This document shows, one piece after another, positions 1,990 through 29,811 of a stretch of 39,828 nt of DNA. The DNA comes from a virus. The stretch is from IMG/VR virus record IMGVR_UViG_3300017756_000036, positions 1 to 39,828 of that record. One strand, written 5' to 3'. The number at the start of each line of letters is the position of its first letter. The first letter of the stretch is position 1. Under the pieces are notes generated by a model. The model was not told the origin of the DNA and did no database searches. It worked only from the letters and a program-made list of their open reading frames with translations. The position numbers and the translations under genes are program-made.

Positions 1990-2286
1990 CTAGCGACCCG
2001 TAATACTTCTATAAAAAATATCGAAATATCGAGAAATAATACTTTTTGAGAGTTTTTCTTTCTCAACGACAGGCTCTTCAATTACGGTTTCAGGTGCAGT
2101 CGGCTCCGTGATGAGGATCGTGTCCTTCTTCTTTTGCCACTTCTTCCAAATCTGATGAACCCGTCCAGTTGAGATCCCAACTTCTTCTCCGATCTCTCGA
2201 CACGACATTCCCTTCATCCGCATCTGAACGATTTTAGTGTTTCTTTCTGCATTCGGTGAATCCCCCCATATTTGATGATGTGCCAT
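1990..2286 (-). CDS. helix-turn-helix DNA-binding protein, 98 aa
   Basis: Residues about 15-50 form a clear HTH of the resolvase/sigma-4-like type: a first helix (ERNTKIVQMRMKGMSCREIG), a turn, and a recognition helix (GISTGRVHQIWKKWQKKK). The C-terminal half is Pro/Glu-rich and ends in a basic YFDIFYRSITGR tail. ATG 2284-2286 has a good ribosome-binding site (AAGGAAACT). It is the last gene of the leftward replication operon, immediately beside the repeat-rich gap at 1646-1989. It could therefore bind that region as an origin-binding or regulatory protein; that is inference from position. Confidence 0.75.
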   Translation of the reverse strand: MAHHQIWGDSPNAERNTKIVQMRMKGMSCREIGEEVGISTGRVHQIWKKWQKKKDTILITEPTAPETVIEEPVVEKEKLSKSIISRYFDIFYRSITGR

Positions 2287-10538: not shown

Positions 10539-10838
10539 ATGAAAGAAGAACATAGCTTGGTTTTCAGGGTGGATCAGCCTCGAAAATTCAGGGAGCTATT
10601 GAGCGATGGTACTGTGGAGCGGGAAATTGAAAGAACCAAGGCAAAGATTGAAAAAAAAATTGTTGAGGTTTCTGAGAACCGATTCACCATCACCATTGGT
10701 ATCAGCGATGATACCGATATTGATAAGATGATGTGTGTCTGTTCCAAAACGCTTGAAACGGGATTCGATCTTTTAAGACCGCCCGTGATCAGGGATATGG
10801 AACAGGAGCGGTTACTAGAAGAAGCCCTTGCGGTTTAA
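10539..10838 (+). CDS. hypothetical protein between regulator and integrase, 99 aa
   Basis: A 99-residue protein with charged helices (EREIERTKAKIEKKIVEVSE) followed by strand-like FTITIGISDDTD and an acidic C-terminus (RDMEQERLLEEALAV). ATG 10539 is preceded by AAAGGATAGA, a usable ribosome-binding site. The 3' end overlaps the TTG start of the integrase by 11 bases, so both are likely co-transcribed. It might be an excisionase or accessory factor by location, but it shows no HTH and I cannot assign it. Confidence 0.65.
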   Translation: MKEEHSLVFRVDQPRKFRELLSDGTVEREIERTKAKIEKKIVEVSENRFTITIGISDDTDIDKMMCVCSKTLETGFDLLRPPVIRDMEQERLLEEALAV

Positions 10839-11955
10839 GGCACTTGATAACGGAAGAGTGCGGGGATACTTCCGCACGCTTACCCCGAAGGGTAAAAAGA
10901 CCATCAGGCGGTACATCTGTAAAGTCTCAGATGTTCAACTGCCTGACGGATCTTTGGATGTGGAGCGTACGATTCAGTACTGGACTTACATGTATGTCAA
11001 AATTGATCGCTCACAATATTTCCGGGACCATAAGTTCGATCACCTTTGTGACCAGTATCAGGCGCATGTCGAAAAGACACTGGGCCGAAATACTTGGCTC
11101 AACTATAAAAAGGGGATCTACCGATTTTTAGATGAAGTCCGGGGTTTGGATGTTGAAGAATTCGAAGAGGTTCATTCGGATGACTTCAAAGCCCGGATGA
11201 GAAACCTAGCCAACCGGACCCAACGATCCTACTGCACCTCAGTTAACCAGTTCCTCAACTGGATCAGGGAGCAGAAAATCCCTCATTCAGCCAAGATCAA
11301 ACTCCCCAAGGAACGAAGAACCAACGCAAGACCCTACCTTCCTGAAGAGATCGAAGCGGTTTCATCAGAGATCAGGAGAGCGTTTCGTGAGGGGGAGAAA
11401 AAATATCAGATCAACTACTGGAATCATTTACGAGCGTGGATGATGATGCACTTGACGGGGATGCGGAGATCGGAAGTCTACGGCTTGAAATATTCAGACA
11501 TCAAACCTGAGTGGATCAACATCCGGGATAACCCGGATTTAGGAGTCTTCATCAAAGGTGCGACTGAGGAAGACGTTGCCATCGGAAAAGCCCTTTCTGA
11601 TTTTTTATTAGAAGACAAAGCCTTTTGTAAGGACAGAAAAATCATCTCAAGGAAAGTCTATCTCTGCGGTTTAGACGGTCAGATATTCTGTAAGTCGGTG
11701 GATACCTTGACTCAGGCTTTAGGACGGCATGTCAAGAATGCGGGGATCGATCCTGATGCGAAAATCTGTCATGGGCTTCGGGCTTCTTTCATAACGTCAG
11801 TTTATGAAAACTTCGGAATCGGAGAAGCGCAGGATTTGGCCCGTCACAAATCTCCAAACACCACCCGTCAATATATACCTGAAGGTTCTAAAACCAAGAA
11901 GAGAAGAGCGATCATCGACAGTCTCTTCGGGACAACGCTAGGACAACAAGCTTGA
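10828..11955 (+). CDS. int: tyrosine-recombinase phage integrase
   Basis: A 375-residue integrase. An N-terminal arm-binding part (residues 1-60) is followed by a SAM-like core-binding domain (about 65-155). The catalytic domain has R213 (LTGMRRSEVYGL), H315-x-x-R318 (CHGLRASFITS), H340 (DLARHKSPNTT) and nucleophile Y349 (TRQYI); a lysine at about 244 (FIKGA) may be the beta-hairpin lysine. It would insert the phage into a host tRNA-Asn gene, since a partial tRNA-Asn lies 30 bases downstream. Translation probably starts at TTG 10828, overlapping the upstream gene; no nearby ATG is in frame. The last codons contain two GGACAAC repeats that may be arm sites. Confidence 0.92.
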   Translation: MRFKALDNGRVRGYFRTLTPKGKKTIRRYICKVSDVQLPDGSLDVERTIQYWTYMYVKIDRSQYFRDHKFDHLCDQYQAHVEKTLGRNTWLNYKKGIYRFLDEVRGLDVEEFEEVHSDDFKARMRNLANRTQRSYCTSVNQFLNWIREQKIPHSAKIKLPKERRTNARPYLPEEIEAVSSEIRRAFREGEKKYQINYWNHLRAWMMMHLTGMRRSEVYGLKYSDIKPEWINIRDNPDLGVFIKGATEEDVAIGKALSDFLLEDKAFCKDRKIISRKVYLCGLDGQIFCKSVDTLTQALGRHVKNAGIDPDAKICHGLRASFITSVYENFGIGEAQDLARHKSPNTTRQYIPEGSKTKKRRAIIDSLFGTTLGQQA

Positions 11956-12588: not shown

Positions 12589-15500
12589 TTACAGGTTCAC
12601 CACTCTTTCAGTAGCTTGCGAGAATTCATTCATCTCTGTTCGTATTTCGTTTATACTTTTTCGATATTTTTCTTGAGACTCTTTAATTTTTGACTCAGAA
12701 GCTTTTCGATTCCGCAGGTTTCTGATCTCTTCTCTAGATGCACGAATCTGTTCGTTTATCTCTCTCATGTAATTCTGCATCGTACGTTGTCTCGATAGCT
12801 GTGGATCGACAGGAAGGATGTTCAATCCTAGCAATTGAGATATTGCCTGCATTGCCGTGGACTTAGGATTGCCACGAGAATCGGTGTCACCTTGAAGCGC
12901 ACCGATAAATTTTCTGATCGGTCCTTGTAATCGTTCTTGACGGGTTTCCATCATTAGGTCAGGTAGACCCGCAAACAGCGTAGGCATAGACAAATTCCAA
13001 CCGTAAAGCAACCATGACATTGCCGCATCTTTACCTTTGGCTCCGGGAGGAACGACTTCACGTTGTGTGAAAGGATCTACGTTTGTCGTGATTGCAGAGA
13101 TGATCGAAGGCCAAGGACCGCCTGCAATCCCCAGAGTCTGTAATGCGGATCTCAGGTCACCGTCAGCGATCTCATTTTGCAGTTCCGCAAACATGCCCCA
13201 AGGAATCATGTAGGAACCGTCTGCGAACTGAAGACGATTGTTTTCATCCTTGAACGGGATTAAGTACATATGAGATTTGTTCCTTGCATACTCAGCCAAC
13301 GTCTTTTTGATCGCATCGACATCGTCATCCTCAAGGCCGAAGAATGCTTCTCCCACAAGACCGGGAAGATACTGACTCGCTAGATAATAGGGAACCAGAC
13401 GGTGAGGATTGTCACGAATTGTTTCAGCCATGATCCCTGCCATTTTTACATAATATGTCAAAAAAGGCGGTCCAAGCGGAGCCTGTCTTGCCTTGCGAAA
13501 AAAGTCAGGCAGTTGACTGTAATCAAATAGGTACTTTTGCGCTCTCAAGACAGCATCGCCTTCAGATAATTTGACTCTTTCTTTCTTTGCTCCACCAAGG
13601 ATTGATTGATCTAACGCACCTCCGAATCTTTGGGTTCCACCGGATCTGATGTCAACCCCTCGATTCATTGCATCCTTGATGACTGCGACCTTCAGAATCG
13701 CATCGATCATGCCGTAGGTGTCACCGACCTTGTTGACCAACTTTTTAATCATGTCGGTCATGACTCCGACTGTAGCGAAGCCGTGCTTCTCTTTCTTGTT
13801 GATCATCCGCTGAAGTCTCATGAAGTCTTCATCGAATCGAGTCAGTTCCTGTGCGGCGAATGTGGTGTCGATGACTCCGTATTTCTTTGCGATCTTATAA
13901 TGTGGACCGTCTGTTACCACTTCTTTGATCGCTGATCCAACCAATCCGGGCATTGTGCGAAAAGGGATGCCACTCAGGTGCATCGTGAAAAGACCGGAGA
14001 CTCCGTTTCGGATGTGGGACTGTGGAAAGTTTGCGGCTACCTTTGAAAATTTAAAAGCTTTCTGCACTTGTGATGCGACTCCACCTTCTCCGAAGAGTGC
14101 GTTGAATGCGGTGTCCCGCTGTCGCATCATGTCGTTGAAACCGATCAGGTCATCATAGACATCCCGCTGTAGCAATGCGCCTTGTAGTCTTCCGTACTTT
14201 TTATTCTTCGGTACTCGTTCAAACTCATTCGGATCGTAATTTGATCCCTTGACGGAAACTTCTCTCCCGACCTCTCGCATTCGTTTAGTCAGGTCACTGA
14301 GGATCGGTTTATAGTCGGATTGAAGAGTATTTAGGATTTGATCTTCTAAGCGATTAGCTTCCTGTATCAGGTACTCCCCGGAAACCTTTCTAGGTTTGAT
14401 TGCGTTAAGTTTCGCTTCATGTCTCTTGATCGCTTTTTCGATAATTCGCTTAGTTCCTTCATCACGTTCAGGATCTGCAAGTTCCTCTTTAAAATTATCA
14501 ATAGCGTTTTGGAGTTGCTGTCTTCGTTCTTCAACTGAAGGATCTAATTCAAGTTCCTTCAGAATCTCACTTGCTCGATCTTGATCGCCAACTATATTTT
14601 CAATCTCTCGCAAATAATCGAATTCAGTTACGGTTTCCTGAAAGGCAATCTCAGCATTATCAGCGATTTGATCGAACAATTTAATCAATTGAACATCACG
14701 AGCAGGGATGCTTAAAGCCTTACCTGCAAGGAATGCAGGATCTTTGATTTCTTTCAACATCAATTCCCGTGTTGCTTTCGGGATATTCTGCCTTTGAATC
14801 AAGTATCCTAAATCAGACGGTCTGAGGGATCGGTTGTTGATCTTTCGTATGACATCGTCAGAAAGAAGGTGGCTCAAATAGATTCTAGGAAGATACTGAC
14901 CCTGCATTTCTTTCAAGGTTCGCTGAGACAGCAACCCGCTTTCGACAAGGTCATCACCGATTTCACTGATCAGAAGTTTTGTCTCTTGTGAAATTTCTCT
15001 GTCTTGAGGATCAAGCATTCGATCCGCTTGCTCGTAAAGCGTTTCCCCTTCATTCGGTTTAGTGGTCAGATACTCATAAACTTTTTTCGGATTCGAAACT
15101 TTTGACAATGCTTGTTGTGCATCTTTGGCGATCCGGTTTGTATCTGCAATCCCGCCTAGTGTGAGGTATCGCTGAATGTTATAGCCCCGTTCCTGTTCCT
15201 TGCTTAATCCGGGCAACATGCGGTTTGAAAGAATACCTTTCGTACCACGCACAAAAGACGGGAATAAATTCAACGTACGTTGCATTAACGTGGCTCTTTC
15301 CGTATCAATCTCTTCCGGTTCTCTTCCGAATGTTTGTTCATTGACGTTGTTGACTCCGTCAACGTCAGGTGTTTCTTCTAGAATTCTGCGCTTTCGACTG
15401 AAGAGTTCATCGTTCCTCATCATGTCACGAGCTTCGTTCTTCATCTTCCGCTCTGCGGATTTGACAAGCTCTTTGACTTCACCGGGAGTCATATTCATCT

Positions 15501-18500
15501 CTTGTGCAATCTCAGAAGATGTCATCTTCGGTACTCCGTTCAGTCCGTATGACATCTCGATTGCATCAAACTCATCATCAGTTGCAGATCGCTCAAGTAG
15601 ACGATTGATCATGTCTGCCTGACCGGATCGGTCTGCGACCATAGAGTAATCTAAAGCCCGTTGTTGCCGATTCCCGCTTTGGAGTTCACCGCCTTCACTC
15701 TCTCTCAGTCGTTCAAGTCTTCTTTCTCTAATACCCTCTAAATACTCTTCATGCGGAAGTCTTCTTTGGGATTCATTTAGCCTTACTTCTCTTTGAAGAT
15801 CTTCAGTTTCTTGTATAGCATTTTCGACACTGCCATCGGCAAAAGTTCTATCCCGATTCGCCGCATACAAACGAGGATTCTCGCTGTAGAAATTAGCAAC
15901 GTCACCCCCTTCCGGTCTTGTTCTTGCTGACTCTAAAGCATTTAAAATAGTTGCAGATATTTCAGCTTGTCTGACTCTTTCTCTTCCTGCTCTTGAAGCT
16001 TCCGCTGTTCTACCTCTTGCAGGATTTCTTATCCAACGATTTGTATCTGAATCCCTTGTGACAAATGTTTCAAATCGTGCCGCACCTCCCGGCCTTTGAA
16101 TAACCTGATATATGTCGGAATGCTGAACTTGAGTAAACGCTGATGCGATTTCGGCAGGATCGCTCCCAATCAGTCCGTCTGCCAATAATTCTCTGACCTC
16201 TCTAAATTTATTCCTGTTTGCTACTCTTCTTTCGACAGGGATCTGTATAGTTCTGAAAGTCGCAGACTGTGCGACTTCAGGTGCATCTTGTTCTGTAGGC
16301 TCCGGTAATCCTGCCGCATTGAAACCCATATCTTCAGGTGTCGGTGGATCTCCTGCGGCATCGATCAGAGGTTGTGGAATGTTAGGTGGATCGGTGTCTT
16401 CAAGGGCTTCCGCATCTGCATTCATCTCCGTCATTTCAGAATCTGAACGGAGTTGACTTTGTGCGACATCTTGATCTAGAGGTTGTGTGACTCCTGTCAC
16501 TTCACGTTGATAATTTTCTGCTCTTTGTCTTCGTATCTGTTGGACTGCACTTGCAATGCGTTCCTGATTATCTCCTAATATCTCTTCGGTATTAACATAT
16601 TGATTTTGGATCTCTTCAAGATCTCGATTCCCAGTTTCGTTATTAGGAAAGAGATCATCAAGATGACTTATTAAATATCCATCACCAACCTCCATAGGAC
16701 TTTGTGTCCCGTCATCATCAAACCCCATGACTGATGTTTGATAGTCTCGACTTTCAAAAATATTCTCACTTAGATTATTTAAGTTTACTTCTTCCGGTGA
16801 TGAAGCTTTTTGTTCAATACCTACACGCTGAACATTGATTTGTTCAGGTGTCATTTGGCTTAAATCACTTCTTTGACCAAAATGAGATCCATGTCTTCCT
16901 TGAATATCAGAAAAGAAATTATAACCGTTGTTTTTTGCAATAATCTTAACAACTCTGTCATAAAGTCTTGCTCTTGATCCGTTTTTATTAGTTGAAGTAA
17001 ATTGAAACCCTTCAGGCTTTTTTAATTTAAGCCATTTATCAAGGCTATAAACTACGGCAGGAAAAACAACTTCCTGTTCTCCTTCATTGTTAAGGCTGAA
17101 ACCTGATCTTCCACCGACACTTGAATAATTACCTGCAAAAAGGATATCCCCCATTGGTGTAGGAACATCCAAATTAATTCCTGCCTGTTCTGCTTTTGCC
17201 TGTGATTCGGAACCTAAAATTGTCCGTAAACTTCTATTGCCAGTAGGGTTCCCAAGAGTGATCCTGATCTCACCACCTTTGGGTGTGGTGAGCGTTGCTG
17301 ATGACCCACCGAATCCTTCTCTCATCGTGTCAAACCCATAACTGTCAGGTAAAGAATTTTCAACGAGATTCATATCAATCGTTCGACTTCCTGTTTCAGG
17401 ATCTTTCACCAATCCTACCGCTTTTAAACCGGAAGCTTCTAATTCGTCATTCTCAGGATCGACAGAAGCAACAACTCCCTGACCAAGGATGATGTCACCT
17501 TTACCCTGCATGTAATCCTTCTTCGATTTGAGAAAGATCCTGCGGATCATCTTGTCGGACAGTCTGCCTTTGTTAATTCCGTCTGCACCAAGACCCGCTT
17601 TCAAAGCGGCAACCATACCCTCCATAAATGTGTTCTCAAGTACACCGTACGCTTTACCTTCTGCAATGCCTTCCGGGGTTTGTTGAAAGTCGATACCTTC
17701 AGCAAATTTTAGAACAATGAATTCTTCAGTTGCCAACTTCTCTGCTTCTGCATCTGACAACCCTTCTGTATCTAATCCGTCCCGGACGTATTCGTATTGC
17801 TCCCGAAGTTCCTCGTTATTCTTGAAGTAGTCGGTAGCCTTGTCGATAAAGTTATCGTACGATCCACCCGCATCATCGATACCCTTCTGTAATCCACGAT
17901 GTCCAAAAACTTCATGCCACAAAACTTCGGTCACTCTTTCAGTTGCCGATGCTTCTGAATCACCACGGATGTTGTCATGAATGATGTAGGTGTCACCGTT
18001 AGATTTTTTGTATATCCCTTCTGTATATTCCGATGCCTTTGTATTCGGGAACATCTGTTTAAATTCATCGTACGATACAACCTCGACTTTTCTTTCGGAT
18101 GATTGTTTGGTCAGAGGATTTTTGACGGACTGCGAAACACCGGGGAACCTTTTCTTGAAGAGATCAACGACTGCCTGAGTCATCGGTTTTGACAGCGCAG
18201 TCCCGGCACGAGCAGGAACCGACTCTTCCGACTGCAACCGGGAACTCTCACCTTCGTTTGCAGATTCGTTTACTTCTCCTGTAACAATCGTTTGTTCACC
18301 TTCAACCCCCGTGTCTGTTCCTTGCGTTTCATCAATTCTTCTTGCTCGTTCGTCAACGAGAGCATCAGCGGTACGAAGAGGGTTAGGTCGTTCCCTTGCT
18401 TCAAGTCTTTCTTCCGCTGTTTGCAGGAAGCCCGGTTTGTCCCTTTCGCTGATTTGTTCTTGCGAGATCCTCTGTCTCCCTGACGGGACACGGGATTGTA

Positions 18501-20064
18501 ATTCTCCTTGATCGAACTCAGTTGAAAGTTGTTCTGTTTGTCCTTGCGCTTGTTGTTGCGGGAACTCATCTCTGAACTGTGCTTCTTGAACTTCTTGTTG
18601 ATCTAAAACAGGTTGCTGTGGTGCAGGAACGTCTTGTTGCTGAAGATCTTGAAACTGCGGTGGAATCGGTAAGTCATATTGTTTTGCAAAGTCCAAAGCA
18701 GTCTTTGCAACTTGAGCATCCGTTTGCTCATCGAACTGACGAAGTTTTTCTTCTTCGATTCTCAGCTTCGCCGCATCTTTAAAATTCGCTAACTCCCGAT
18801 CCCTTCTTTTGACGATGTCAGTTCGCTCTTTGTCAACTCGATCATCGTAGGCAAACTTCTGATATGCGGTTTCTAATGCTCCCGGTCCTACTTCTAAAAC
18901 TGCACCGGAAGTGACTGCCTTCTTGATTGCATCTGTATCGTAAAATGATTGAACTTCTTCCGGTGATGCGCCCAACGACTGAGCCGCTTCGGCTAACAAT
19001 TGCTGTGACATCAATTCATCAAAGCCTTCAGACGAACCCCCGGCAATCACATCAGTGGCTAATCGTGCAAGCGGCCCTCCGATAGGAAGACTTGCTCCAC
19101 CTTCAAGAAGAGTCTGCGGTCCTGCGATCCTTCGTTTGACTGCATCTGATGCCAACCGTTTTGACAGCATCTCAAGTCTGCGCTCAGTCTCTGATTCGAC
19201 AATTGCTCCCGCATACAGACCGTTACCCTGTTCCTGCATCACACTCTGTTCAACAATCGCTCTCAATCGAGGATCGTGTAACGCTCTTTCTCTGACCTCA
19301 TCTGCAACTTGATAGGCCGCTGATCCTGTGGTTGCCGCCGTATACGCTGTAGCCGCTGTGACAGGGTTTTTAGTGACTGCAAGCGTTGACAAACCTGCGG
19401 CTCCACCTACAAGTGTCGGTGAGAAAGACTGACCGATTGATGCGCCGATTTGAGATTTTGGTAACGTGTATCCTGCTTCTGCTAACGGAAGAAAAATATT
19501 GCGGTCAAGAAAACTATCCGGTGCGGATTCTCTTAATCTTTGTAATTGCTCTTCTTCAGTCTCCGGTCTGCCAACATCAATCTTTGGAGTGACATCCTGA
19601 ACAAACTGTCCTGCCGACTGCATCGCACTTCCCAACGATTGAGAAATCGGACCTGCTTCCTGTAAGTTTGAATAATCGACTTTGGGCGGTTCAAGCAATC
19701 CGACTGCTTCTCCGATACGACCTAGACCAAAAGGGATTCGATCTCTGCTACTTTCGTATCGTTCTTGTGCAGGATCTACCGGGGCCGATATGTCTGCGCC
19801 TGCACTTTTGAGCATTGATCCGATGCCTGAAATCGCACCGGGGATACTTGCGCCTGCTTGATCAAAAAAGGAAGGGTTCGGAGGTGCTTCGCCTAAGATT
19901 CTTTTTTTGACCTTCGATGCACGTTCATCGTTATACCAACCTAACGAATTCAGGATGTCATCGATTGCATCCGATTTTTGATTATATGCATCGTACGATT
20001 CAAGATTCGGATCGATACCGTACAGGTCAAGACGGGACTTAATCAGATTTAACGCATTACTCAT
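12589..20064 (-). CDS. giant polyvalent virion protein, 2491 aa
   Basis: A 2491-residue multidomain protein of the large polyvalent type known from phages and conjugative elements. Recognisable parts in order: an N-terminal region with Ala/Gly-rich possible membrane-active helices (about residues 190-260); a Gln-rich linker (about 460-560); a zincin-like HEVFGH motif (H717, E718, H722) in a WHEVFGHRGL context; an unassigned strand-rich domain (about 900-1050); an HTH resembling sigma-70 region 4 (about 1490-1545, MTSSEIAQEMNMTPGEVKEL); long helical regions; an LPD38-like C-terminal segment (about 2185-2260, GPPFLTYYVKMAG); and a terminal coiled coil. Such proteins are thought to be injected with phage DNA to counter or reprogram the host. 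It follows four small basic proteins and a long coiled-coil protein. Confidence 0.8.
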   Translation of the reverse strand: MSNALNLIKSRLDLYGIDPNLESYDAYNQKSDAIDDILNSLGWYNDERASKVKKRILGEAPPNPSFFDQAGASIPGAISGIGSMLKSAGADISAPVDPAQERYESSRDRIPFGLGRIGEAVGLLEPPKVDYSNLQEAGPISQSLGSAMQSAGQFVQDVTPKIDVGRPETEEEQLQRLRESAPDSFLDRNIFLPLAEAGYTLPKSQIGASIGQSFSPTLVGGAAGLSTLAVTKNPVTAATAYTAATTGSAAYQVADEVRERALHDPRLRAIVEQSVMQEQGNGLYAGAIVESETERRLEMLSKRLASDAVKRRIAGPQTLLEGGASLPIGGPLARLATDVIAGGSSEGFDELMSQQLLAEAAQSLGASPEEVQSFYDTDAIKKAVTSGAVLEVGPGALETAYQKFAYDDRVDKERTDIVKRRDRELANFKDAAKLRIEEEKLRQFDEQTDAQVAKTALDFAKQYDLPIPPQFQDLQQQDVPAPQQPVLDQQEVQEAQFRDEFPQQQAQGQTEQLSTEFDQGELQSRVPSGRQRISQEQISERDKPGFLQTAEERLEARERPNPLRTADALVDERARRIDETQGTDTGVEGEQTIVTGEVNESANEGESSRLQSEESVPARAGTALSKPMTQAVVDLFKKRFPGVSQSVKNPLTKQSSERKVEVVSYDEFKQMFPNTKASEYTEGIYKKSNGDTYIIHDNIRGDSEASATERVTEVLWHEVFGHRGLQKGIDDAGGSYDNFIDKATDYFKNNEELREQYEYVRDGLDTEGLSDAEAEKLATEEFIVLKFAEGIDFQQTPEGIAEGKAYGVLENTFMEGMVAALKAGLGADGINKGRLSDKMIRRIFLKSKKDYMQGKGDIILGQGVVASVDPENDELEASGLKAVGLVKDPETGSRTIDMNLVENSLPDSYGFDTMREGFGGSSATLTTPKGGEIRITLGNPTGNRSLRTILGSESQAKAEQAGINLDVPTPMGDILFAGNYSSVGGRSGFSLNNEGEQEVVFPAVVYSLDKWLKLKKPEGFQFTSTNKNGSRARLYDRVVKIIAKNNGYNFFSDIQGRHGSHFGQRSDLSQMTPEQINVQRVGIEQKASSPEEVNLNNLSENIFESRDYQTSVMGFDDDGTQSPMEVGDGYLISHLDDLFPNNETGNRDLEEIQNQYVNTEEILGDNQERIASAVQQIRRQRAENYQREVTGVTQPLDQDVAQSQLRSDSEMTEMNADAEALEDTDPPNIPQPLIDAAGDPPTPEDMGFNAAGLPEPTEQDAPEVAQSATFRTIQIPVERRVANRNKFREVRELLADGLIGSDPAEIASAFTQVQHSDIYQVIQRPGGAARFETFVTRDSDTNRWIRNPARGRTAEASRAGRERVRQAEISATILNALESARTRPEGGDVANFYSENPRLYAANRDRTFADGSVENAIQETEDLQREVRLNESQRRLPHEEYLEGIRERRLERLRESEGGELQSGNRQQRALDYSMVADRSGQADMINRLLERSATDDEFDAIEMSYGLNGVPKMTSSEIAQEMNMTPGEVKELVKSAERKMKNEARDMMRNDELFSRKRRILEETPDVDGVNNVNEQTFGREPEEIDTERATLMQRTLNLFPSFVRGTKGILSNRMLPGLSKEQERGYNIQRYLTLGGIADTNRIAKDAQQALSKVSNPKKVYEYLTTKPNEGETLYEQADRMLDPQDREISQETKLLISEIGDDLVESGLLSQRTLKEMQGQYLPRIYLSHLLSDDVIRKINNRSLRPSDLGYLIQRQNIPKATRELMLKEIKDPAFLAGKALSIPARDVQLIKLFDQIADNAEIAFQETVTEFDYLREIENIVGDQDRASEILKELELDPSVEERRQQLQNAIDNFKEELADPERDEGTKRIIEKAIKRHEAKLNAIKPRKVSGEYLIQEANRLEDQILNTLQSDYKPILSDLTKRMREVGREVSVKGSNYDPNEFERVPKNKKYGRLQGALLQRDVYDDLIGFNDMMRQRDTAFNALFGEGGVASQVQKAFKFSKVAANFPQSHIRNGVSGLFTMHLSGIPFRTMPGLVGSAIKEVVTDGPHYKIAKKYGVIDTTFAAQELTRFDEDFMRLQRMINKKEKHGFATVGVMTDMIKKLVNKVGDTYGMIDAILKVAVIKDAMNRGVDIRSGGTQRFGGALDQSILGGAKKERVKLSEGDAVLRAQKYLFDYSQLPDFFRKARQAPLGPPFLTYYVKMAGIMAETIRDNPHRLVPYYLASQYLPGLVGEAFFGLEDDDVDAIKKTLAEYARNKSHMYLIPFKDENNRLQFADGSYMIPWGMFAELQNEIADGDLRSALQTLGIAGGPWPSIISAITTNVDPFTQREVVPPGAKGKDAAMSWLLYGWNLSMPTLFAGLPDLMMETRQERLQGPIRKFIGALQGDTDSRGNPKSTAMQAISQLLGLNILPVDPQLSRQRTMQNYMREINEQIRASREEIRNLRNRKASESKIKESQEKYRKSINEIRTEMNEFSQATERVVNL

Positions 20065-20668: not shown

Positions 20669-20950
20669 TTAACATTTCCACGCACGAAGTGATTTATTGA
20701 TTCTAGAGTTAGGATCTCTAGCAGTTTTTTTCGATGTTAACTTTTTCTTCATTCCACTCATCCTTGCACAAAAACTTTTCTTCCTAGCTTTGCTTTTTTT
20801 AGACTTAGGATTCGGTGCGGGAGGGCGCAAATTGCCACCCGTAGCTTTGTTGTATGAACGCCTTCCCTTTGCATTGAGTCCACCTGACTTAGCCTTCCCG
20901 GCCTTGCGTTGCCAAGCAGGGGATTTCTTTCCGGTTCTTTTTGCAGGCAT
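20669..20950 (-). CDS. small basic DUF6321-like protein, 93 aa
   Basis: A 93-residue basic protein with the hallmark order SPAWQRKAGKAKSGGLNAKG, GGNLRPPAPNP, KSFCARMSGMKKKL and a C-terminal LRAWKC. This order is typical of the DUF6321 family found in phages and in nucleocytoplasmic large DNA viruses. ATG 20948-20950 overlaps the stop of the 1057-aa gene (TAATG). It is the first of four small basic proteins in a row. The two conserved cysteines (KSFCARM and the terminal C) might bind metal or form a disulfide; the biochemical role is unknown. Confidence 0.78.
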   Translation of the reverse strand: MPAKRTGKKSPAWQRKAGKAKSGGLNAKGRRSYNKATGGNLRPPAPNPKSKKSKARKKSFCARMSGMKKKLTSKKTARDPNSRINKSLRAWKC

Positions 20951-23900
20951 TAGGGTTCCTCGTCTAATTCGGTTTCATCAAATTCAACTTTTCCCGTTTG
21001 GGCAAAAATATTTAATATAGTTTTTATTGAATCTACACCTTTCACAATTTCGGAAGCATTAACATTAGGGTCATAAGGATTTTTTAATTTTGCCTGAACT
21101 AAGTTGGTAGTGATCTTTTTAATATCTTCTGTCGAAAGTTCCCCCTTCTCTGTTTTTAAACGATTAGCTTCATCAAGTGCCGCTCTTTTTAAATCTATAA
21201 CTGCTTTCTCAGCTATTGCTTTATCTTTAGCGAGTTTGAGTTTTGTCGATGCGGTTTGGGTGCTAATCAATGAGTCAATGTCGAAGCCCAACATTTTCTC
21301 ATTATTAACTCTTGTCATATTTGCCCTTAATTCTTTTTTCCCTTCGTCATTTGCACCGTAGTACTGACCAAGATATGACTCTACTTCGCTAATCCCTTGA
21401 GTTCTTCTTTCAATAAGAACTTTATCGTGTTTAATTTTTTCAACTTCTTTAAAAGATTTTTTTAATTTTTTGACAACATCACCACTTATGAAATTTTGTT
21501 TTTGTAACTCTTTAAACTCAAAGTCCTGAGTTGTCATTGAATTAAAAGTTGAGTCCACTAAGTCGGTTGCACCTAAGTGTGCAGTTCTGAATAAATTGTC
21601 ATAAAGTTTATTTACTTTATCTTGCGCTTTACCCTGCTTTGCTTCTGTGATTCTTGTTTTAAAATCAACTCCTCCCGTGTTTTTTCCGACTGTCTTTTGT
21701 AACTCTTCAATTTCTTTGTAATTATTCCCAAGAGCATCAAGCCTTCTTGTAATCAGTCCGTTTCTTTCGAACTTGATATAATTGTTTGCTTCTTTTGCGC
21801 CTTTGAATCCTAAAAGCCTTGCTTCTGTTTCTGCATCTTCGCCTACGAATTCGGTCCCACGAAGTAACTTTTGAGATAGCTTTTGTAATTCAACATTGTC
21901 TTTCTTCTCATCAACTGATGCTTGAAGACTTGTCTTATCTACCCCGTACGCATCTGCTTCATCTTGTGTAATTGTTCCTTGACCGGAACTTACTTTGAAG
22001 CGTACGCTTCTTTCTAACTTCTCAAAATCAGTTGCGCCCATAGAAAACTTACTAAGTTCAGGACGTACTGAAATAAGGTACTCGTAAGCGGCTTCGACTC
22101 CCGATGTGTCTTTTAAATAACCATATGTTTGGTTTTGTACTTCTCGTGTTGCTCTTTCTTCCGCTCTCAGTTCTTGCATGAACTGTCGAGATGCGGTGTC
22201 TTCGGCTCTTGATTCAGCCGCCCTCATAATCTCCATTCGGAGATTTTGCATATTCCCGCTTCTATTTGCGGCATCAATTGCAAGTTGGAGTCTTTCTTTA
22301 TCTCTTCCGTCTGCGGTTTCTTTAAACTGATTCGCTTTATCTAAAACTAATCTTCGGTTTTGAGCTTGATCCGTGATTGCATTTTTAATAGTTGTTGGTA
22401 AGTCCTTTTCCGGTATGTCTTGCATTAAATTTAAAACTGCCGCAGGGTCACCTTGTTCAACTAAGGCTTGTATTGCAGACATCTTGTATGCCTGTATTCT
22501 TTTCTCATCTTTGAATTGAGTCCCTTGAGGAAGATAACCTTGCTTAATGTACTCATTAATTAAAGCTTGACCGCCCATTACATTTGCCGCTTGCAAAGCT
22601 TTAACTTTTGCTTCTTTGCTGTTTTTTAGGATCTCTTGATCTTTTACTTCTTGATTTATTTCAATCAAAGCATCTGCTTGATCATCATTGAAAATCCCGC
22701 TTGCGGCATAACCTCTAATTTGTTCATCAGTAAGCGAACCGGAACTTGCCGCTTTTGTTACTAATGATTGAGTAAAAGATTTTTCAGAATCATCGTTGTA
22801 ATTAATTCCTTCAAACCCCGGAAAAAGCTTATTGCCGTCTGCATCAACTGCATTTTTAACATGATTGAAAAATCCCTTTTGATCACCCCCGTAAACTGAT
22901 TTAAGTCTTAAAACTGCATCTAATGAATTTGTTTTGACACCTTGACGATGCGCCAAAATCATACTGTCTTTAACATCCCTTGATAATTTTTCATCCGGGA
23001 TCTTGTTAATCTCAGTTTCGTAATCTTTAGGATCTTGAATCTCTGAAATTGCTTTTAGTTGAATACCAAAAGCTTTGTCTTCATCTTGTTGTTTTTCGTT
23101 TTCTTTATTGATGTTGATTTGAAAATCCCGTGCTTCATCAACTCTGAGATCCGCAGTGTCATAGAGTTCCCCGGTGAGAGCAGATCGGAACTTGCCTTCA
23201 GGAACAGAGGTATCGTTTTCTGCAAGCGTAGCTTTTGTCATTGCTTCGCTCATTTGGTTTTCGTAACTCTGTTTTGACTCTGCGCCTTTTGCGAAATCGG
23301 AGGTTGTGCTTTTTAGTATCGATTGATCTCGTTCATCTGTAGATACACGTTTTTCTTGATCGCTTTTTAATTTAATATTTTCTTTTCTTTTTCTTGAAAT
23401 TAATTCATCAAGCGATTGAGTCCTTTCTTTTCTTTTTTCTGCGTTCTGCGGTCCTTGTAATTCTTCTTCTATTTTTTTCTTTTGTTCTTCTGCCTGTTTT
23501 ATTTCATCTTGATTTGTTCGAAGTAAATCTCCCCCTTCTCTTGCTTCTTTTAGCATTCCGGGTCTTTGCATTGCGATATTTCGAGCAAGCATCCCTCCAC
23601 CGGATCTCAGAGCATTGACTTGATCTTGCTCTTGACCCGCTAGTTTCTGAAACCCTTCTGCACTTTTGTAATATTTATTTGCATCTGCTAAACGATCCTC
23701 ACGGATCTCTTTTTTCTCAGGACCGATGTTCAGTACTGAATCATCCCGGCTGAAGAAACCTTGATCATCAAATGCCTGCAATGCGGAATCTCGCTTTGCC
23801 TGCATGTCTTTGATCTTTTCAGATGCTTTTTGATATCCCGAAGATCCGACCTTGAATGAATCAAGTTCCTTCCGGGCAAGTCCCATATCCCGGTCATAGG

Positions 23901-24123
23901 TTTCTTTTGCAGAATCTCGTGCAAGCTTCTTATCTTCCCTAGATCGATTAACCGCACCGCCTACAGCATCCCCGAACATATCGAGGGTCTTCATTTCTCT
24001 TTGTTGTTTAGCAAGCATTGCCTGCAATAAACCCTGACCACCTTGAGCGATGTTTCGGTTGATCTGATCGTATGCGCCCTGTGGAAGGAAGCCTGCCTGA
24101 TAGTTGACTTGAGGAAGTGCCAT
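20950..24123 (-). CDS. long coiled-coil internal virion-type protein, 1057 aa
   Basis: A 1057-residue, almost entirely helical protein rich in Glu, Lys, Gln and Ala, with many coiled-coil stretches (about residues 60-260 and 640-1000). It has no transmembrane segment or catalytic motif that I recognise. The N-terminus (ALPQVNYQAGFLPQGAYDQI) is typical of virion proteins in podovirus-like genomes. Its place between the S74 protein and the giant polyvalent protein fits an internal core or ejection protein, analogous to T7 gp15/gp16. A tape measure is less likely, as no tail-tube or chaperone gene accompanies it. Confidence 0.65.
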   Translation of the reverse strand: MALPQVNYQAGFLPQGAYDQINRNIAQGGQGLLQAMLAKQQREMKTLDMFGDAVGGAVNRSREDKKLARDSAKETYDRDMGLARKELDSFKVGSSGYQKASEKIKDMQAKRDSALQAFDDQGFFSRDDSVLNIGPEKKEIREDRLADANKYYKSAEGFQKLAGQEQDQVNALRSGGGMLARNIAMQRPGMLKEAREGGDLLRTNQDEIKQAEEQKKKIEEELQGPQNAEKRKERTQSLDELISRKRKENIKLKSDQEKRVSTDERDQSILKSTTSDFAKGAESKQSYENQMSEAMTKATLAENDTSVPEGKFRSALTGELYDTADLRVDEARDFQININKENEKQQDEDKAFGIQLKAISEIQDPKDYETEINKIPDEKLSRDVKDSMILAHRQGVKTNSLDAVLRLKSVYGGDQKGFFNHVKNAVDADGNKLFPGFEGINYNDDSEKSFTQSLVTKAASSGSLTDEQIRGYAASGIFNDDQADALIEINQEVKDQEILKNSKEAKVKALQAANVMGGQALINEYIKQGYLPQGTQFKDEKRIQAYKMSAIQALVEQGDPAAVLNLMQDIPEKDLPTTIKNAITDQAQNRRLVLDKANQFKETADGRDKERLQLAIDAANRSGNMQNLRMEIMRAAESRAEDTASRQFMQELRAEERATREVQNQTYGYLKDTSGVEAAYEYLISVRPELSKFSMGATDFEKLERSVRFKVSSGQGTITQDEADAYGVDKTSLQASVDEKKDNVELQKLSQKLLRGTEFVGEDAETEARLLGFKGAKEANNYIKFERNGLITRRLDALGNNYKEIEELQKTVGKNTGGVDFKTRITEAKQGKAQDKVNKLYDNLFRTAHLGATDLVDSTFNSMTTQDFEFKELQKQNFISGDVVKKLKKSFKEVEKIKHDKVLIERRTQGISEVESYLGQYYGANDEGKKELRANMTRVNNEKMLGFDIDSLISTQTASTKLKLAKDKAIAEKAVIDLKRAALDEANRLKTEKGELSTEDIKKITTNLVQAKLKNPYDPNVNASEIVKGVDSIKTILNIFAQTGKVEFDETELDEEP

Positions 24124-26832: not shown

Positions 26833-27016
26833 TTGATAATTCCAAAACTTCTATTCTTGCTTCAAGCTTTTCTACTTTTTCTATCAAAGCATTTGTGTTT
26901 TGAATAATTTGTCTATAGCTATCTCGCAATCTTTCATCTTCTATTTCAAAAACAATTTCATTGTCAGCAATGATTTGACCACTATTGTTGTTAAAATCAC
27001 CTATGTATCCTTTCAT
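26825..27016 (-). CDS. small coiled-coil virion-region protein, 63 aa
   Basis: A 63-residue protein with a short N-terminal segment (KGYIGDFNNNSGQI) and a coiled coil over about residues 27-60 (LIEKVEKLEARIEVLELS), likely a trimer or dimer. It overlaps both neighbours by a few bases (ATGA at 27013-27016), so it is tightly coupled between two proteins that share a repeated module. It could be a clamp or chaperone for their assembly. No family is recognised. Confidence 0.65.
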   Translation of the reverse strand: MKGYIGDFNNNSGQIIADNEIVFEIEDERLRDSYRQIIQNTNALIEKVEKLEARIEVLELSND

Positions 27017-29811
27017 ACTTCTGCCGCAACTAGTTCCGTTGTAATGATTTTGTTTGTTTCTGAAGATGATGCAATTAAGTGTGGAATGTAGCCTTCAGTC
27101 ATCGCAGGAAAATATAAAGATGCTGTAGATGATTTATTAACACCTGAGTCAGGAAGCACCGTAGGCGCAATCTTAGATTCGTTGTCTACCTTTACCTGTA
27201 CTGAAGGTGATCCAACATAAACTACTTTAATCAAATCGAACCTAAGTCTTTTTAAATTTTCACTTGAATTAATGCTTAATGAAACGCTTTGTATATTCCC
27301 GGTGCAATTAGTGAATTTGACTGAAAACCTGTTTGCGAACAAAGTGGTTGACGGATAAAGTTGCCTATTTAATTCTGTAACTTGAGATATTGAGAATGTT
27401 TCTACAATGGAACCGTCTGCAAATATCTGTACTGTCCCACTAAAGTTTTCACCAACAACCTGAACAAACTCTAAATACTTTTCTGTATCAATGTTTCCTA
27501 ACGTGAAATCTCTTGTTTGAAATGAATACGTTAAATTAGATCCTCCACCTATAAATCCGTCAGGTGTATAAAGTTTATTTACTAAACCACGATAATATAA
27601 GTTTCCTGCATTTAGTGTGGTTTTTGATAATTTGGCGTTCCCAAATTTAAAATCTATACGAAATCCTTCACCTGAATCTGAAAGTAAAAAATAAACATCT
27701 TCTAATACACCTCCTGAATTATTAATCCCGGTAGCGTTAGGTGGACTGAAAGATGATAAAACAGGTTGGGTTAAAACATTGACATCTCTTCCGTTGAAAA
27801 TAGAAATACCGGATTGAGATTTATAAACTATGTTGTCTTTAAGATTTGCTACACATTTGAAGAATCCTGATTCGACTCCTTCTGTCGTTGGGACTTTGAC
27901 TTTTCGCATTGCGTTGTGTGCATTGCCGTACACACGGAATATGCCAAACTCTGTAAACACGACACACTCTCCCCCTCTTGGGGTTAATGCTGTGATGTTT
28001 GCATCAAAATCAAGAAAACCGTCTAAAGGCCAATTGTTCGGTCTACCGTACGATGAAATATGTAGTCGTTTTCCTTTAGATCCAAATAAAAAGTTATTTA
28101 CTTCTGTAAGATGTTTTAACCCGGAAGGTGGCAACCCCGCATCAGTAATCGGCTCAATATCAATTAAATTACGATCCGGTGTAAAATCTAGGACATGAGC
28201 ATTTGTAACCGCTGTGCCGTGAATATTTATTGAAGCACCTAAATCTCCGGTAATCCGGTAAACCCGATCATCTGTTTCCGATGTGTTTTCAATGTAAAGA
28301 ATTATGTCAACTTTGTGAATTGTCGTATTTGAAGTAATTTTAAAATTATTTGCACTTGCATCTAAAGTAAGTCTTTTTGTTTCATGTGCATCCGAAGCAC
28401 TGTAAGTACTACCTTCTGTATAAGTTAATCCGGTATATGCATAAAAGATCGCATATACTGTTCCTGTCGCAGGAAGATTACTTACTGCAATTGTTACTGT
28501 TTGTGAATTTATAGTTGCACTTGCATTAAATGTATCTTTGTAAAAAATATTAAATGCTTTTTTAAAAATAGCACTTGTCCCACCTATTCTATATAAAGAG
28601 TACTTGCCGTCATCAGGTCCGTTTGAAAGTAAAGTAAAAGTTCCTGTTCCTGCGGATGTTGTGCCTATCGAGGAACCTCCGAAAGTTGTAGAAATTTGAA
28701 ATGTGTCTGATGTTGGAACAGAAGAAACAAAATAACTTGTGCCTTCCGACAATCCCGTGGGCAAACCACCACCGGAAGAAACGGTAAAAGCAACTTTATC
28801 TCCTACAATTAACCCGTGTCCGTTTACTGTTATGACAGTCGGATTCGCATTTGTAATATCGCAAACTCTAGACTGATTAAAATTTACAGTAATCGGAGTA
28901 TTGTTTTTACTTGTATCAATTGCATTTTGTGATTGTGATAAATCACTAGGTTCTGACATTCCTGATTCTGCTAATGTTGCATCATCATATTTTGCAATCC
29001 CGTACCTAAATGCTACCGGAGCGTTGTTTGTAAAAAAATTATCTGAGTGCTTACCGTCATCTCTGTCTGAGTTTTGTGTGGTGTCTAATTGTCCTAAAGT
29101 AAAACCTAATTTTGGTGTATCAATACCTAACTTTAAAATTTGAGATGTATTCCCGTCTATAATTCTTACCGGAGTTGATTTAATAACTGAAACTGCATTT
29201 GTTAATGTGCCGCTGTTTGTTGTTTTTTTTGTAAGTGTAATGATGTTTGATGCAGTATTGATTGATTTTATTTTTGTGTCCGAATTTACAAAATCAGAAT
29301 CTAATTCGTCACCTTCAATAAATTTAAAAATATCACTAGCAGAAACATTTAATTGTATTGAGTTGGCAGGTATTGAAGGAACTGATACCGAGTAATCATC
29401 TCTACTGATATAAAGGTCATCTGAAAATTCAACAAAAGATTGCGCTCCAAATAAACCACGAATAACATTACTTACTGTCATAGTGACTCCACTATTAACC
29501 GTAAGTACTACGTTTTGATTTACTATAAGTGGTGTTCCAAAAGTGGCATCAGAACTTAAAGTAGTATTTGTTGTGAAAGTTCTGATTTCTACTGTTTGAC
29601 CTCCGACCCCGTCTGTGCCAATCCAAGTATTACCCGCTTCATAAAAAAAGTTACTTCCTCCACCGTCACCACCAATTCCTTGTATTGCCCTAACGTCACC
29701 GTTAGAAAAATCACAATTAATTGCATCTTGTACAGAATTTTCAGGAATTTTATGAGCAGGAAACCGATTGTTTAAACCGCCCACAAAATTATTTTGTGAT
29801 TCAATCGGCAT
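27013..29811 (-). CDS. large beta-rich tail protein (nozzle/stabilisation type), 932 aa
   Basis: A 932-residue protein starting IESQNNFVGGLNNRFPAHKI, a beginning typical of tail tubular B or P22 gp10-like stabilisation proteins, with a DFSNGDVRAIQG motif soon after. The middle has WD-like beta stretches and Ser/Thr-rich strands; around residues 610-680 are FTEFGIFRVYGNAHN and KSQSGISIFNGRDV. The C-terminal 80 residues carry the LYFPAMTEGYIPHL module shared with the 262-aa protein. It probably forms part of the tail tube or nozzle. Exact homology cannot be established from reading alone. Confidence 0.65.
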   Translation of the reverse strand: MPIESQNNFVGGLNNRFPAHKIPENSVQDAINCDFSNGDVRAIQGIGGDGGGSNFFYEAGNTWIGTDGVGGQTVEIRTFTTNTTLSSDATFGTPLIVNQNVVLTVNSGVTMTVSNVIRGLFGAQSFVEFSDDLYISRDDYSVSVPSIPANSIQLNVSASDIFKFIEGDELDSDFVNSDTKIKSINTASNIITLTKKTTNSGTLTNAVSVIKSTPVRIIDGNTSQILKLGIDTPKLGFTLGQLDTTQNSDRDDGKHSDNFFTNNAPVAFRYGIAKYDDATLAESGMSEPSDLSQSQNAIDTSKNNTPITVNFNQSRVCDITNANPTVITVNGHGLIVGDKVAFTVSSGGGLPTGLSEGTSYFVSSVPTSDTFQISTTFGGSSIGTTSAGTGTFTLLSNGPDDGKYSLYRIGGTSAIFKKAFNIFYKDTFNASATINSQTVTIAVSNLPATGTVYAIFYAYTGLTYTEGSTYSASDAHETKRLTLDASANNFKITSNTTIHKVDIILYIENTSETDDRVYRITGDLGASINIHGTAVTNAHVLDFTPDRNLIDIEPITDAGLPPSGLKHLTEVNNFLFGSKGKRLHISSYGRPNNWPLDGFLDFDANITALTPRGGECVVFTEFGIFRVYGNAHNAMRKVKVPTTEGVESGFFKCVANLKDNIVYKSQSGISIFNGRDVNVLTQPVLSSFSPPNATGINNSGGVLEDVYFLLSDSGEGFRIDFKFGNAKLSKTTLNAGNLYYRGLVNKLYTPDGFIGGGSNLTYSFQTRDFTLGNIDTEKYLEFVQVVGENFSGTVQIFADGSIVETFSISQVTELNRQLYPSTTLFANRFSVKFTNCTGNIQSVSLSINSSENLKRLRFDLIKVVYVGSPSVQVKVDNESKIAPTVLPDSGVNKSSTASLYFPAMTEGYIPHLIASSSETNKIITTELVAAEV

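Follow-up and report, generated by a model that had tools for sequence, protein, structure and literature searches.

Phage-type polyvalent proteins (Iyer et al. 2017, PMC5512222) carry many unrelated domains on one giant chain, among them a zincin of the HEXXXH form for which self-processing has been predicted, and have an LPD38-like C-terminus; that paper mentions no sigma-region-4-like domain, and the word sigma is absent from it. N4 gp50 and the other schitovirus vRNAPs are encoded by the last gene of an ejection block, are free of cysteine, and combine a zincin-type HExxH and a large helical C-terminal part with transcription-related cargo, which in gp50 is an RNA polymerase domain. In T7, gp16 is a giant, cysteine-free last internal protein, annotated with an endolysin domain, and has a cysteine-free partner, gp15, upstream. 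Minimal single-HTH phage sigmas and T4 gp33 possess a region-4-type HTH alone, with no region 2; they are free-standing and made during infection, and gp33 recruits polymerase via the beta subunit (PMC7824862). The giant protein analysed here, P0001, resembles each of these in part. It is encoded in what we call the window, the whole 39,828-nucleotide stretch of viral DNA under study (IMG/VR record IMGVR_UViG_3300017756_000036), a contig that may be an incomplete piece of a genome. P0001 shares with polyvalent proteins the multidomain layout, the HEXXXH zincin and relatives bearing ART-PolyVal, InPase, RadC or GGDEF domains, and its C-terminus resembles theirs in predicted fold, but it differs from those described in having a sigma-region-4-like domain. 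The features listed for N4 gp50 all recur in P0001 except the RNA polymerase domain. T7 gp16 and gp15 have no sequence match to it, and where gp16 has its endolysin domain P0001 has a zincin and an HTH; the cysteine-free upstream partner has a probable counterpart in the window. Finally, the HTH is again of region-4 type and again stands without region 2, but it lies within a giant protein that is probably injected.

P0001 corresponds to a 2491-residue ORF with an ATG start at 12589-20064 on the minus strand (20064 to 12589), the plus strand being stop-rich across the same interval; all parts of P0001 located below are on the minus strand. The original prediction, which did not state the strand, had given this ORF, a HEVFGH motif near residue 717 and an HTH near residues 1490-1545, and had called the product a large polyvalent protein. 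All four points were borne out: the motif is at residues 717-722 (window 17899-17916), the HTH spans about residues 1479-1547, with SSEIAQEMNMTPGEVKEL at 1516-1533, and the protein has several unrelated domains and homologues with hallmark polyvalent domains. A zincin, a DUF6934-like domain, a sigma-4-like domain and a helical C-terminus are combined within the one ORF. The N-terminal region (residues 1-420, window 18805-20064) is Gly/Ala-rich, and no run of 19 residues in it reaches the hydrophobicity of a classic membrane helix. Elsewhere in the window, a tyrosine integrase is encoded at 10828-11955 (plus strand), and the phage is therefore probably temperate; no tRNA genes were found in the window.

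The C-terminal module of P0001 is alpha-helical and conserved (residues 1600-2491, window 12592-15267), and these approximately 900 shared residues define a family of giant phage proteins with about 58 members. When viral contigs were scanned with C-terminal alignments, 14 and then 64 loci were recovered, which after removal of identical ends gave the 58 or so giants, some of them cut-off sequences and some near-duplicates. The closest relative, P0003 (IMG/VR contig 3300030451_003074), is 87% identical and is cut off at 2114 aa. With the whole protein as query, the sole match among 50,697 annotated phage records was in the spring-water podovirus MW202615, at 23% identity over the C-terminal third; the giant polyvalent protein of that phage (L004:15975-22475) carries the label 'DNA repair protein', which seems to be an annotation error. 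Scanning of genome contigs for prophage relatives found none. Pfam domains of sister giants include InPase, ART-PolyVal and RadC together in L010, InPase in L013 and ART-PolyVal in L015, and 16 further members bear ART-PolyVal (four of them), InPase, LPD1, Zeta toxin, helicase/methylase, ddrB-ParB, RadC or ASCH domains. Another sister giant, P0004 (L007:5147-11638), has a GGDEF domain (E 1.3e-8, signature SGDEI) plus a HEVIGH zincin. P0001 itself matched none of the curated Pfam polyvalent cargo domains, nor Pfam LPD38. An AlphaFold model of its C-terminus (mean pLDDT 60) had viral polyvalent/LPD38 proteins as top fold matches (E 7e-16), and Foldseek of the same model against the PDB returned nothing significant. 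Because its C-terminal homologues carry classic cargo and its C-terminal model finds polyvalent/LPD38 proteins first, P0001 is, judged from homology and predicted fold, a phage-type polyvalent protein. Its kind, the polyvalent ejection proteins, is known and its assignment to them well supported; what makes it unusual is the sigma-4-like cargo. Homology of its C-terminus or zincin to the C2/C1 parts of N4 gp50 was also considered and rejected (hhalign probability 0.1% and 1.6%).

A general feature of the family is the near absence of cysteine. P0001 has none in 2491 residues, against 21.5 expected from the rate in the window's other genes (8.6 per 1000; P=5e-10), and the family as a whole (about 58 giants; P0001-P0005, L006-L018, L043-L104) has six in about 115,000 residues: one in the 32,989 residues of the first 16 members and five in the 82,474 of the other 42. 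Cysteine is likewise missing from N4 gp50 (3500 aa), gp51 and gp52 and from T7 gp15 and gp16, while the polymerases, primase, helicase, portals and terminase of N4 and T7 have several; exceptions among these controls are T7 gp14, with one cysteine, and the N4 capsid protein, with none. For N4-like phages, the cysteine-free state of the vRNAP has been connected with transit through the tail or periplasm (PMC2784036, PMC3715699). Gene order points the same way: in relatives with upstream DNA the giant gene closes an unbroken series of ORFs devoid of cysteine, an arrangement shared with the N4 operon. In the window, three small ORFs separate it from an upstream gene for a 1057-aa cysteine-free protein (20950-24123, minus strand), a probable partner ejection protein whose L003 relative is also without cysteine, and the same strand and gene block encode a 932-aa internal virion protein (27013-29811, minus strand; profile match to phrog_511, E 6e-27). 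From cysteine exclusion and the last-in-block gene position we infer that P0001, as a member of the polyvalent family, is very probably ejected into the host; injection, which had been assumed in the original prediction, thereby gains support. In phages yet to be characterised, a series of adjacent ORFs lacking cysteine indicates where the ejection block probably lies.

The zincin-like domain of P0001 (residues 640-870, window 17455-18147) is homologous to segments of the giants L012 and L013 (E 9e-7 and 4e-6) and, more weakly, of L007, MW202615 and L008. The motif, HEVFGH in P0001, reads HEVMGH in L012, HEVLGH in L013, HEVIGH in L007 and HELGH in MW202615, and the alignment conserves His, Glu, His and Gly as well as a Glu further along, on the helix that follows. 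There, KLATEEF of P0001 (residues 776-782, window 17719-17739) corresponds to AAEEW or VAEET in relatives, making Glu780/781 a candidate third zinc ligand. The AlphaFold model of the region has the expected order of strands followed by the active-site helix, at low confidence (mean pLDDT 42, too poor for a fold search). A metallopeptidase domain of zincin type had been predicted from the motif, and the homology to HExxGH/HExxH giants together with the downstream Glu upholds it. The proposed affinity to dipeptidyl peptidase III, in contrast, did not survive: sequence similarity to that enzyme (M49) ends with the motif, and the zincin profile matched neither Pfam nor, up to E 10, any PDB sequence. 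A search of solved structures by sequence with the zincin was similarly without a match. The domain is instead, by its sequence, a zincin of the HEXXXH polyvalent type (PMC5512222) and a predicted metalloprotease, which may cleave in a zinc-dependent manner. Cleavage is not guaranteed, since N4 gp50 has its own HExxH domain and is nevertheless packaged unprocessed (PMC5512222). The zincin might then be inactive or structural, with P0001 only an inner part of the ejection channel, similar to T7 gp16, and its cargo dispensable. Such a role would also fit the available part of a preprint on the N4 gp50 structure, which assigns no protease role, and the absence of HExxH from the available sequence of some family members. 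Conservation of the His, Glu, His and later Glu speaks against it, however, as does the omega of 0.04 between P0001 and P0003, the lowest anywhere in the protein, and we consider an inactive zincin unlikely.

The stretch around residues 900-1050 had been described as strand-rich and unassigned; strand-rich it is (residues 871-1110), but its second half can now be assigned, because hhalign pairs residues 963-1052 (window 16909-17178) with a domain family from proteins of Vibrio and Pseudomonas phages (probability 93.8%, E 1.7e-7), and this family itself matches DUF6934 (PF22028). A GNAT fold, suggested by the order of helices and strands in this alpha/beta domain, was supported by no search, and viral scans that used just the strand-rich part retrieved nothing beyond the known relative. 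The DUF6934-like domain recurs (L020:2848-3549, L026-L030) as the N-terminal domain of uncharacterised proteins encoded by T4-like phages of Vibrio and jumbo phages of Pseudomonas, in some cases beside DNA ligase and alt. Comparison of P0001 with P0003 gives dS values of 1-1.6 at residues 871-1260 (window 16285-17454), about 1.5 in the strand-rich stretch, as against 0.1-0.5 elsewhere. The raised dS in the strand-rich stretch points to replacement by recombination, and the DUF6934-like domain has probably been exchanged in this way, as a cassette swap within the gene. The linker that follows (residues 1111-1465, window 15670-16734) is hypervariable, with 63% identity to P0003 and large indels.

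The sigma-70 region-4-like HTH lies beyond this linker and is a four-helix segment (residues 1479-1547, window 15424-15630; Pfam core 1496-1542). Its likeness to sigma factors had been noted from the sequence alone, and profile searches confirmed it with matches that are moderate but specific, coming from sigma families only. Pfam Sigma70_r4 matched with E=1.1e-3 in P0001 and 3.6e-4 in P0003, Sigma70_r4 and r3 being the only Pfam families to match the segment, to the exclusion of general HTH families. When Sigma70_r4 was searched as a single model through the genomes, the values were 2.2e-6 and 2.1e-7, with only P0003 above the curated cut-off; P0001, at 18.9 bits, is below the Pfam whole-protein cut-off of 24.1. 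The NCBIfam sigma70-ECF model gave 7.7e-5 for P0001 and 2.8e-5 for P0003, and the RpoD C-terminal model 0.0096 and 5e-4. A profile search of solved structures with the HTH placed primary sigma factors in all of the best five positions, weakly (E 0.07-0.34). Scans of viral sequences with the HTH alone returned only the known relative. Could the likeness be convergent, two charged helices of a helical linker mimicking region 4 by chance and having no separate function? The scores are indeed moderate, the AlphaFold model of the HTH is of low confidence (pLDDT about 30-50), and with our own HMM, built from RpoD, RpoS, RpoH and two phage proteins, P0001 reached 13.3 bits, a narrow margin over the 12.2 bits of the best of 5,000 composition-matched shuffles. 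However, P0003 scored 17.0 bits with this HMM, the segment aligns gaplessly with both RpoD and RpoS over 54 residues, and independent searches of Pfam, NCBIfam and PDB sequences each put sigma factors first. Moreover, the HTH has been kept 97% identical between P0001 and P0003 (omega about 0.1) although the flanking linker has diverged. Among 59 related records, Sigma70_r4 occurs inside a giant frame only in the window and in P0003's record, and elsewhere in small ORFs only; the sister giants listed score at most 3.5 bits with our HMM, and the family's other giant proteins have no Sigma70_r4 match, so the match is not a composition artefact of the protein class. Convergence therefore appears improbable. 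By its sequence, the HTH is most likely a captured region-4 domain with a changed DNA-reading face.

That change bears on what the domain could do. In RpoD, residues R584, E585 and Q589 read the -35 element. The RERIRQ of RpoD (584-589) is PGEVKE in P0001, which puts P, G and E at these three positions, and the 54-residue segment has a net charge of -5, compared with +5 in RpoD. A search of the whole window for sigma region 2 (PF04542) found nothing at E values up to 1, and this absence, with the loss of the -35-contact residues and of the basic charge, rules out a complete sigma-70 factor. Binding to host promoters, one of the functions originally proposed, is thus disfavoured, and docking on the RNA polymerase flap is the more plausible of the two. 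Such docking on the beta-flap would be the simplest function remaining for the HTH, with minimal phage sigmas and gp33 as the analogues; we hold it tentatively, as somewhat less probable than its opposite. The window holds no T7-type RNA polymerase (PF00940) by a search that detects those of T7 and N4 (N4 gp50 itself weakly), and the phage therefore probably uses the host polymerase. A plain DNA-binding tether for packaging, end protection or ejection drag, unrelated to RNA polymerase, would be another role for the HTH, and a precedent exists in that the rare HTH and other DNA-binding domains of polyvalent proteins have been read as binders of dsDNA (PMC5512222). Small sigma-4-like HTH proteins are also common in these phages, including one of 98 aa in the window (1990-2286, minus strand). 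The 98-aa protein serves as an example of an ordinary DNA binder from this phage: it is basic (+6) and sigma-4/HTH_28-like, scores above the Pfam cut-off and matches many HTH families. The segment in P0001, on the contrary, is acidic, has a recognition helix devoid of R584/E585/Q589 equivalents and is matched by sigma families alone, and a tether seems to us rather unlikely. Pairwise BLAST detected no similarity of the giant's HTH to the 98-aa protein or to other free-standing sigma-4 proteins of relatives or the window. One such protein, of 214 aa, is encoded in two related phages (L033:629-1273 and the corresponding frame of L034); it has a strong sigma region 4 (45.6 bits) and an N-terminal half that is XRE-like by eye only.

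Taken together, a possible scheme is that P0001 would be the terminal and largest ejection protein of a phage of short-tailed type, filling the slot of T7 gp16 or N4 gp50. Its helical C-terminal ~900 residues and its N-terminus would form a conserved packaging and ejection module, with the cargo domains placed between them and the DUF6934-like domain as exchangeable cargo. Following packaging or entry, the zincin may cleave P0001 itself or else a host protein. The sigma-4-like domain would dock on the beta-flap of the host RNA polymerase, much as a minimal sigma or a T4 gp33-like coactivator does, and hold or redirect the polymerase onto the incoming phage DNA. Considered as a whole (ejection protein, zincin cleavage and HTH docking on polymerase), this proposal falls just short of being probable. 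Its boldest element, a virion-delivered sigma fragment by which an injected region-4-like domain captures host RNA polymerase during DNA entry, before any expression of phage genes, and by which the captured enzyme may help pull the DNA in, is doubtful.

For phage proteins in general, the near-total exclusion of cysteine from about 58 giants and from the ejection proteins of T7 and N4 suggests a simple sequence test for those that enter the cell. Within the family, cargo domains appear to be exchanged in the region flanked by the conserved N-terminal/zincin part and the conserved C-terminal module. Injected modifiers and injected polymerases are strategies already known, the latter from N4 and from P23-45, which has a tape-fused virion polymerase (PMC10770324). 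If the sigma-like domain of P0001 acts on polymerase, a protein borne by the particle would target host transcription by a third strategy, and a virion-delivered sigma fragment, if real, would parallel the injected polymerase of N4 in function without bringing a polymerase along.
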